From contig NZ_CP044523.1 of assembly GCF_008831545.1 (NCBI RefSeq), positions 1,178,001 through 1,242,000 of the forward strand: 64,000 bases of DNA, written 5' to 3'. The position numbers and the translations under genes were made by a program. Positions 29,573 through 30,893 of this stretch are shown piece by piece (the stretch's first letter is position 1; each line of letters begins with the position of its first letter). The DNA comes from Halorussus halophilus (GTDB taxonomy: Archaea; Halobacteriota; Halobacteria; Halobacteriales; Haladaptataceae). A model generated the notes under the pieces. That model did not search any database and was not told the origin of the DNA. It saw only the letters and a list, made by a program, of their open reading frames with translations.

Positions 29573-29893
29573 CTATCCTTTCTTGAAGCCGACGAGGAAG
29601 CCGCCGGTGAACCCGGCCCCGATGGAGAGCGTAGAGAGAATGGTCATCATCCACGACGGCGGAGTGCCGTTCTGGGCCGATTCACCTATCTTGAGCATCC
29701 CAGCGGTCAACTTCTCCCAATCGACGGTGAGGATGCCGCGCGATTCGAGGAACTTGAACAGAGCCAACTCGATGCCGACGAGGACGGCGATGAGCTTCGC
29801 TACCTTCTTCGCCGCGAAGCCCATGATACCGCCGATGAGGGCACCCGAGCCGAATTCAAGCCCGAGTTGTTGAGGGTCAATGGGCGATGGCAT
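29573..29893 (-). CDS. FUN14 family membrane protein
   Basis: A 106-residue protein with three hydrophobic, Gly-rich helices: GSGALIGGIMGFAAKK near the start, VLVGIELALFKFLES in the middle, and the C-terminal SIGAGFTGGFLVGFKKG. This matches the FUN14 family. Start ATG 29893 gives a normal N-terminus. Upstream open codons come from the repeat region. The gene abuts gvpO with stop codons back to back. The family's role in archaea is unknown. Confidence 0.9.
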   Translation of the reverse strand: MPSPIDPQQLGLEFGSGALIGGIMGFAAKKVAKLIAVLVGIELALFKFLESRGILTVDWEKLTAGMLKIGESAQNGTPPSWMMTILSTLSIGAGFTGGFLVGFKKG

Positions 29894-29930: not shown

Positions 29931-29991
29931 CAACCTTTTCCTGCGGGGTGGTCGCCACGGCGACCACCCGCTGGCAAAACGTTGATGAAAA
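29931..29991 (+). repeat. Facing hairpin element, left arm
   Basis: The arm reads CAACCTTTTCCTGCGGGG, a hairpin GTGGTCGCC (29948-29956) with GGCGACCAC (29959-29967), and then CTGGCAAAACGTTGATGAAAA. The right arm at 30369-30428 is the same design in the opposite orientation with another hairpin sequence. The two arms bracket about 380 bp. No gene is supported between 29894 and 30536. Confidence 0.8.
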
Positions 29992-30368
29992 TCACCGGAA
30001 GACAAACCGCGTCTTCCGAGCCTTCCTTCACATCCGCTCAGGAAAACACGTCGTCACCGCTTACGGAGCGCGCAGAGCGCGCTCCTTCGACGGTTCCTCG
30101 GACGCGCTCGCTCGGTGCGGCGCGAGAAGCGCGCCTCCTTCGCTTCCGGTACAATCACTTGTACTCGACCGCAGGTGGAACGTGTCGTCTGCTGATAGTG
30201 CGTCCCTTATCGACTGTCGAAACTAGACCTAATTTCGCTCGGCCGAACTCCTGCGGTTGGATACTGTAATCTACCGCGAGCGAAGCGAGCGCGGGCGACG
30301 AACCCTCGAACGAGCGAGTGCGAGGCGGCGTAGCCGTCTCGCCGAGCGAGTGAGGGGGTGAGGAAGGC

Positions 30369-30428
30369 TTTTCATCAACGTTTTGCCAGTGGGCGGGCGC
30401 AGAGCGCCCGCCCCGCAGCAAAAGGTTG
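30369..30428 (-). repeat. Facing hairpin element, right arm
   Basis: Read on the minus strand: CAACCTTTTGCTGCGGGG, a hairpin GGCGGGCGC with GCGCCCGCC (plus-strand 30392-30400 and 30404-30412), then CTGGCAAAACGTTGATGAAAA, except that one base before CTGG differs (A for G). The flanks are nearly identical to the left arm while the stem differs but still pairs. The interior next to it is rich in CGAGCGAG-type repeats. Confidence 0.8.
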
Positions 30429-30536
30429 GGGGTAATGATAAAAACCCGGAGAGCGTACGGGCGCGTATGGGCATGGGTACGGTACTCGTGAGCGTGCGAA
30501 TCGAGGTGCAGGTCCGGCGAGGCTGACGTCGTCGGC

Positions 30537-30893
30537 GTGGACATCAGTGGTCGCCACGAGGAGGCAGGTGAGTATCTGATGGTTGCCGCGGCCGTCCACG
30601 CCACGGTCGGCACGGCACGTCTCCAGAGCGTCGTGGGGATGGGCTTTGCTACCAGTCGCAACGAACCGACACTCGAACGGACCACGGCAGTCGTCGCGGA
30701 GGCGACGGACGAACTTCCCAACCCGCCAGACGGTCCCATCGTCGCCGAACGCGGCGAGTTTTACGAAGAACCAGAGTGGGAAGTCGAACAGTTCCTCGGC
30801 CACGATTTCAAGTACGTCGAGAGCATAGCCGAACGCGAGACAGTGCAAGCCGCACACCACGCAGCGTACGCCGCCCGAAAACTGCTCCTATGA
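30537..30893 (+). CDS. DUF2209 family protein
   Basis: A 118-residue archaeal protein whose start region VDISGRHEEAGEYLMVAAAV suggests an RNase H-like first strand with the key Asp. GTG 30537 is the first usable start codon. The preceding codons in frame (encoding ADVVG) look like the true beginning of that strand, yet no ATG, GTG or TTG occurs there before an in-frame stop at 30489. Either the protein starts at GTG with a short strand or a rare start codon is used. Its stop overlaps the hflX ATG by 4 bp. The function is unknown. Confidence 0.75.
   Translation: MDISGRHEEAGEYLMVAAAVHATVGTARLQSVVGMGFATSRNEPTLERTTAVVAEATDELPNPPDGPIVAERGEFYEEPEWEVEQFLGHDFKYVESIAERETVQAAHHAAYAARKLLL

Follow-up and report, generated by a model that had tools for sequence, protein, structure and literature searches.

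What are the two facing arms that lie between a pair of divergent genes in Halorussus halophilus, and what has placed them there? The window, the whole 64,000-nucleotide stretch of NZ_CP044523.1 that we analyzed, had been described in an initial annotation as holding two facing arms of 60 nt with conserved flanks and differing stems that pair, and our analysis agreed with that description, giving arms of 60-61 nt with self-complementary stems. The left palindromic arm (29931-29991, plus strand) consists of CAACC, a T-run (29936-29939), an inner hairpin, an A-run (29976-29979) and a 3′ box, CGTTGATGAAAA (29980-29991, plus strand). The right arm (30369-30428, minus strand) is in the opposite orientation, with AAAA at 30420-30423 forming the T-run of the minus strand, followed by a hairpin and a 3′ box. 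Each arm forms a stem made up of an outer T-run/A-run pair and the inner hairpin. The inverted repeats of this stretch include I1 (32 nt at 91%) and I4 (25 nt at 88%). Since the core word common to both arms, CAAAACGTTGATGAAAA, occurs twice in the window when up to three mismatches are allowed, compared to a chance expectation of 0.02, the arms are real rather than fortuitous.

Further hairpins lie inward of each arm. In the left unit, these are an optional module B (29996-30018, plus strand), a hairpin of CGGAAGAC and GTCTTCCG that is common to several other copies in the H. halophilus genome; an inner hairpin C (30065-30085, plus strand; GGAGCGCGC AGA GCGCGCTCC), a module that has different stems in other copies; and a hairpin D with its tail (30107-30152, plus strand), which runs from GCTCGCT to CGCTTCCGGTA. 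The right unit contains a hairpin C region (30315-30352, minus strand; GCGAGGCGGCGTAGCCGTCTCGC) and a hairpin D region (30274-30292, minus strand; CCGCGAGCGAAGCGAGCGC). Between the two units is a middle stretch (30153-30273, no strand assigned) that is partly conserved in the genome's other two facing pairs, with about 62-69% overall conservation between the three. In keeping with the annotation, the core has no convincing gene: its 377 bp contain only short overlapping open reading frames, a tRNA search of the stretch found none between the arms, and Rfam gave no match to the stretch at strict or permissive thresholds. When 29931-30428 was folded as one RNA strand, its energy was far below that of shuffled sequences (z = -13.6).

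Each arm abuts a promoter. To the left is a FUN14-family gene (29573-29893, minus strand; PF04930, E = 8e-18), whose start codon is 42 nt from the T-run of the left arm. To the right is a transcript (30467-30893, plus strand) that comprises a conserved short leader open reading frame and a DUF2209 gene (30537-30893, plus strand; PF09974, E = 3.5e-30). The right arm lies 43 nt upstream of the conserved ATG of this transcript, a distance counted by hand from the ATG at 30467, the gene caller having placed the start at 30537. As the arms are set 42 and 43 nt from two divergent start codons, the facing pair consists of two units whose tails meet in the middle of the core. The short open reading frame at 30467-30526 (MGMGTVLVSVRIEVQVRRG, then a stop codon) has a congener form, MGTVGAETEVKARRG, that stops just before the gene, and it is possibly a leader peptide.

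We searched for copies elsewhere. The arm box is present 28 times in the 4.45-Mb H. halophilus genome, in all 17 of the 17 congeners searched, and also in Haladaptatus and several Natrialbaceae-type genera. The general layout of these palindromes is C-T(4-7)-hairpin-A(4-6)-8 nt-AAAA, followed by further hairpins. A pattern for this layout matched 63 distinct palindromes in the H. halophilus genome, compared to 0 for a reversed-pattern control, and at least one in 27 of 28 genomes of the family, where the reversed pattern matched almost none. In a class-wide sample, 164 of 194 genomes and 61 of 65 genera had at least one copy. The majority of copies consist of one arm plus a tail, with facing pairs in the minority. 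Host genes include the core genes aRF1, SRP54, TFS, S17e, aIF1A, and ThrRS. Many copies are followed, inward of the tail, by long runs of a degenerate ACCGC repeat (ACCGCACAGCAACCGC), as in L001, L010, L402, and others. Apparent tandem arm duplicates about 90 bp apart in L097, L116, and L120 contain N and are probably assembly joins.

Because the copies were counted by a pattern in which the T- and A-runs are fixed, conservation of these runs can be read without bias only in sets chosen by gene. Such sets are the orthologous cdc48 and aIF1A 3′ ends, at which palindromes whose stems are unrelated occur in many genomes of Halorussus-like and Haladaptatus-like kind. Here the box and stem vary widely, beyond the range of the first pattern, and the layout is constant: the stop codon, a short spacer, C-T(4-7), a hairpin, A(4-6), 8 nt, and AAAA. 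One cdc48 site scored as empty (L155) has decayed remnants. With an A-run and a 3′ box that ends in AAAA, the opposite strand of a palindrome has two T-runs 8 nt apart.

The stems change and continue to pair. Among the designs were GCTGCG with CTGGC, CTCGTCGGGT with ACCNCTCCTCG, and ATTGCGAGC with GCTCGAT; close to the base, every design has a conserved internal loop that is specific to it. In six sets, stem halves from the same copy paired better than halves swapped between copies, and none of 2,000 permutations reached the observed total in any set or class, the class labels being rough in that four copies of arm type A were placed in B. The outer stem also changes in concert (CAAC/GTTG, CGAC/GTCG, GAAC/GTTC), and a C·C mismatch beside the T-run is often conserved. 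Copies exist in other haloarchaeal genomes and their stems pair, so that neither of the outcomes named in the initial annotation as refuting its proposal was observed.

Position relative to genes was examined for 183 copies from nine genomes of several families, with the surrounding genes called by ARAGORN and a simple codon-usage caller with a window-trained model. The T-run side was 0-15 nt past a stop codon or tRNA end in 90 of the 183, compared to 7.2 expected under random placement and orientation (z = 32); a T-run soon past the end of the coding sequence is also a feature of archaeal terminators. In another 29 (3.3 expected, z = 14.5), the T-run side was 38-55 nt before a start codon, gene starts from this caller being crude. 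In the same distance ranges, the far side of the palindrome followed a 3′ end in 3 of 183 copies and preceded a start codon in 0 of 183. The initial annotation had not foreseen such strict placement. In the promoter group, the edge of the palindrome reads GGTnG, and a 3-4 nt gap separates it from a BRE-like block rich in A, beyond which is a TATA-like stretch. Some of the remaining H. halophilus copies look adjacent to tRNAs or genes that the caller missed.

Two features concern individual hosts. Different genes with the shortest gaps (L024, L260, L277, L278, L293, L300, L305, L306) often end in TTCCAATGA or TTCCAATAG, a C-terminal FQ, and in these hosts pairing of the palindrome seems to extend into the stop codon region. 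In several Natrialbaceae (L094, L106, L119, L123, L129), a gene with a TrpG-like N terminus (LVIDNYDSFAYN) has its start overlapped or abutted by a copy, which may alter the gene start.

The presence of the palindromes is patchy. At the window site, where gene order is conserved, 4 of 12 congeners, including H. halophilus, have a palindrome and 8 of 12 are empty; where present, it always borders the FUN14 promoter block on the same side, and in an HflX tree the genomes with a filled site are not united in a single clade. In genome G209, a copy lies 2 nt past the stop codon of folD and is absent from 11 matching relatives, including the sole genome of the same genus with a match, in a comparison that was limited to genomes with good partial matches to a query made by joining the two ends of the protein. 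The difference between G209 and G165 at folD includes a gene and so is not a clean single insertion. Copies also resemble their neighbors within a genome. For 132 of the 183 copies, the nearest stem was in the same genome, compared to 32 expected and a maximum of 52 in shuffles, indicating that copies are generated or overwritten inside individual genomes.

How might these properties fit together? We suggest that these palindromes, with their shared design, covarying stems, strict position and orientation, patchy presence, and homogenization within genomes, are REP-like repeats that copy themselves within genomes and delimit transcription units by acting as bidirectional terminators or insulators. 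Judged from sequence patterns, this has about an even chance of being correct. The T-run side faces the gene, either directly past a stop codon or tRNA or directly upstream of BRE/TATA. Where the palindrome follows a gene, its first T-run would terminate the transcript of that gene, and in both settings the double T-run of the outer strand would block transcription that arrives from beyond the palindrome. The two copies in the window would each shield one of the divergent FUN14 and DUF2209 promoters, with the core formed by the two tails meeting, and copies would arise by targeted insertion, gene conversion, or both. In Haloferax volcanii, the T-stretch T5C terminates transcription efficiently, at 95% in an in vivo reporter (PMC7237163); together with the placement of T-runs on both strands, this suggests bidirectional termination or insulation, which would account for both positions and the single orientation. 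Several features count against it. Many orthologous sites lack a palindrome, indicating that it is dispensable. Unlike in bacterial intrinsic terminators, the T-run precedes the hairpin, and in the promoter cases it is not obvious which transcript is to be stopped. In G209, moreover, a young, almost uniform expansion resembles a mobile element more closely than a set of fixed regulatory sites.

The main rival is that these are selfish, transposase-free repeats of the REP or PATE kind, strictly targeted to transcription-unit borders as the sites of least harm, with any terminator effect incidental. This explanation, which is compatible with a role as terminators or insulators, seems to us possible but doubtful. 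It gains from G209, whose roughly 26 nearly identical copies have sharp left ends (ACCGACC) and lie 1-3 nt past stop codons or beside promoters; the empty folD sites, the filled and empty window sites, and the excess of nearest stems within genomes speak for it as well. Against this, palindromes are retained at the ends of the same core genes in two genera, and no link to a transposase was found: in H. halophilus, no palindrome occurred within about 1.5 kb of any of 13 tnpB and 2 tnpA matches, and the two Y1 transposases (tnpA) and tnpB were rejected as mobilizers on this ground. Also against it, 61 of the 63 H. halophilus palindromes lie on the main chromosome, with 2 elsewhere (P = 0.0003), whereas 6 of the 13 tnpB are on contig C3 and 2 on C2. 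The original proposal of a miniature mobile element is supported in part. Dispersed, genome-homogenized copies and filled and empty sites among congeners agree with it; neither a terminal duplication nor a transposase link was found, and as the majority of copies are single arms with a tail, a MITE comprising the whole facing pair was dropped. In a MITE comparison that drew its empty sites from relatives more distant than close strains, the outer ends were sharp and the inner ends diffuse. A phage or plasmid origin was not supported, since our search of plasmid and phage collections yielded no full copies.

Two further explanations place the function in RNA or in DNA structure. The hairpins could act after transcription, in 3′ untranslated regions or as small RNAs, for instance by stabilizing mRNA 3′ ends like bacterial REPs. 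The covarying stems, conserved internal loops, low folding energy, and placement right after stop codons would all suit such a role. We consider it unlikely, as about one-sixth of copies are upstream of promoters and point away from the gene, which would leave them outside its mRNA, a T-run straight after the stop codon would tend to end the transcript ahead of the hairpin, and Rfam contains no match. The related proposal of divergent RNA units in the window could not be established, the palindromes occurring in both orientations relative to transcription. Those same two orientations, and the fixed 8-nt spacing of the A-runs in all forms, including the sets picked by gene rather than motif, would be expected of a DNA-level site, either a cruciform or A-tracts spaced 12 bp, that binds a nucleoid or boundary protein and affects transcription only indirectly. 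However, paired T-runs also explain the spacing and the boundary protein is hypothetical, making this explanation improbable too.

Bacterial REPs are often located soon after stop codons. REP/BIME elements of the GTAG/CGTC kind are likewise short, dispersed, multicopy, non-coding palindromes, sometimes in facing pairs and variable between species (PMC3733652), and bacterial CGTC REPs also lack a dedicated transposase (PMC3733652). They differ from the haloarchaeal palindromes in several respects. The unpaired GTAG/CGTC foot of the hairpin is absent here, with C-T4 and A4-box feet in the aligned copies instead, and whereas GTAG REPs flank a RAYT gene, the two Y1 transposases of this genome have no palindrome nearby. 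In addition, the haloarchaeal stems are replaced whole while continuing to pair, there is a second strict placement, bordering promoters on their upstream side, and the hosts are archaea. The PATEs of Haloquadratum are closer in host, being haloarchaeal, transposase-free, palindromic, and heterogeneous in sequence, with no target duplication seen (PMC3119063). PATE palindromes resemble the ends of IS605-type transposons (PMC3119063); in contrast, the palindromes described here lie at gene edges and, in the H. halophilus genome, on no tnpA or tnpB locus. Archaeal T-tract terminators, as described in H. volcanii, share a T-run of 4-7 shortly past the coding end (PMC7237163). Unlike those T-tracts, the T-run here is inside a conserved, covarying palindrome with a double T-run on its other strand, in dispersed repeats that are also found at promoters. 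BOX/RUP-type repeats of pneumococci are modular, with several stem-loop boxes, and we know of no sequence relation between them and these palindromes. Like the haloarchaeal palindromes, they are intergenic repeats (PMC3049150). The positional rule differs. In a literature search largely confined to papers outside subscription, we did not find the family described, which does not prove priority.

For haloarchaea, the palindromes are candidates for a general device, recognizable from pattern alone, that separates genes in crowded and often divergent or convergent arrangements. Their nucleotide-precise placement and ongoing spread in some genomes raise the question of how a repeat locates a transcription-unit boundary or becomes fixed there. 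As a tentative conjecture, mobile insulator palindromes throughout Halobacteria may recognize transcription-unit edges, either just past a stop codon or tRNA or at the BRE edge, and insert in one orientation, with their paired stems renewed by turnover of hairpin tips or gene conversion. The G209 copies, which have nearly identical arms, stems that differ and still pair, and 15 distinct hairpin D loops in 20 rows (one row unscored), indicate that stem turnover is fast and symmetric. In these copies (L325, L337, L349, and L352-L368), the 3-6 nt loop of the second hairpin differs in most of the near-identical palindromes, and the tips of the hairpins appear hypervariable, as though each round of copying had opened them again.
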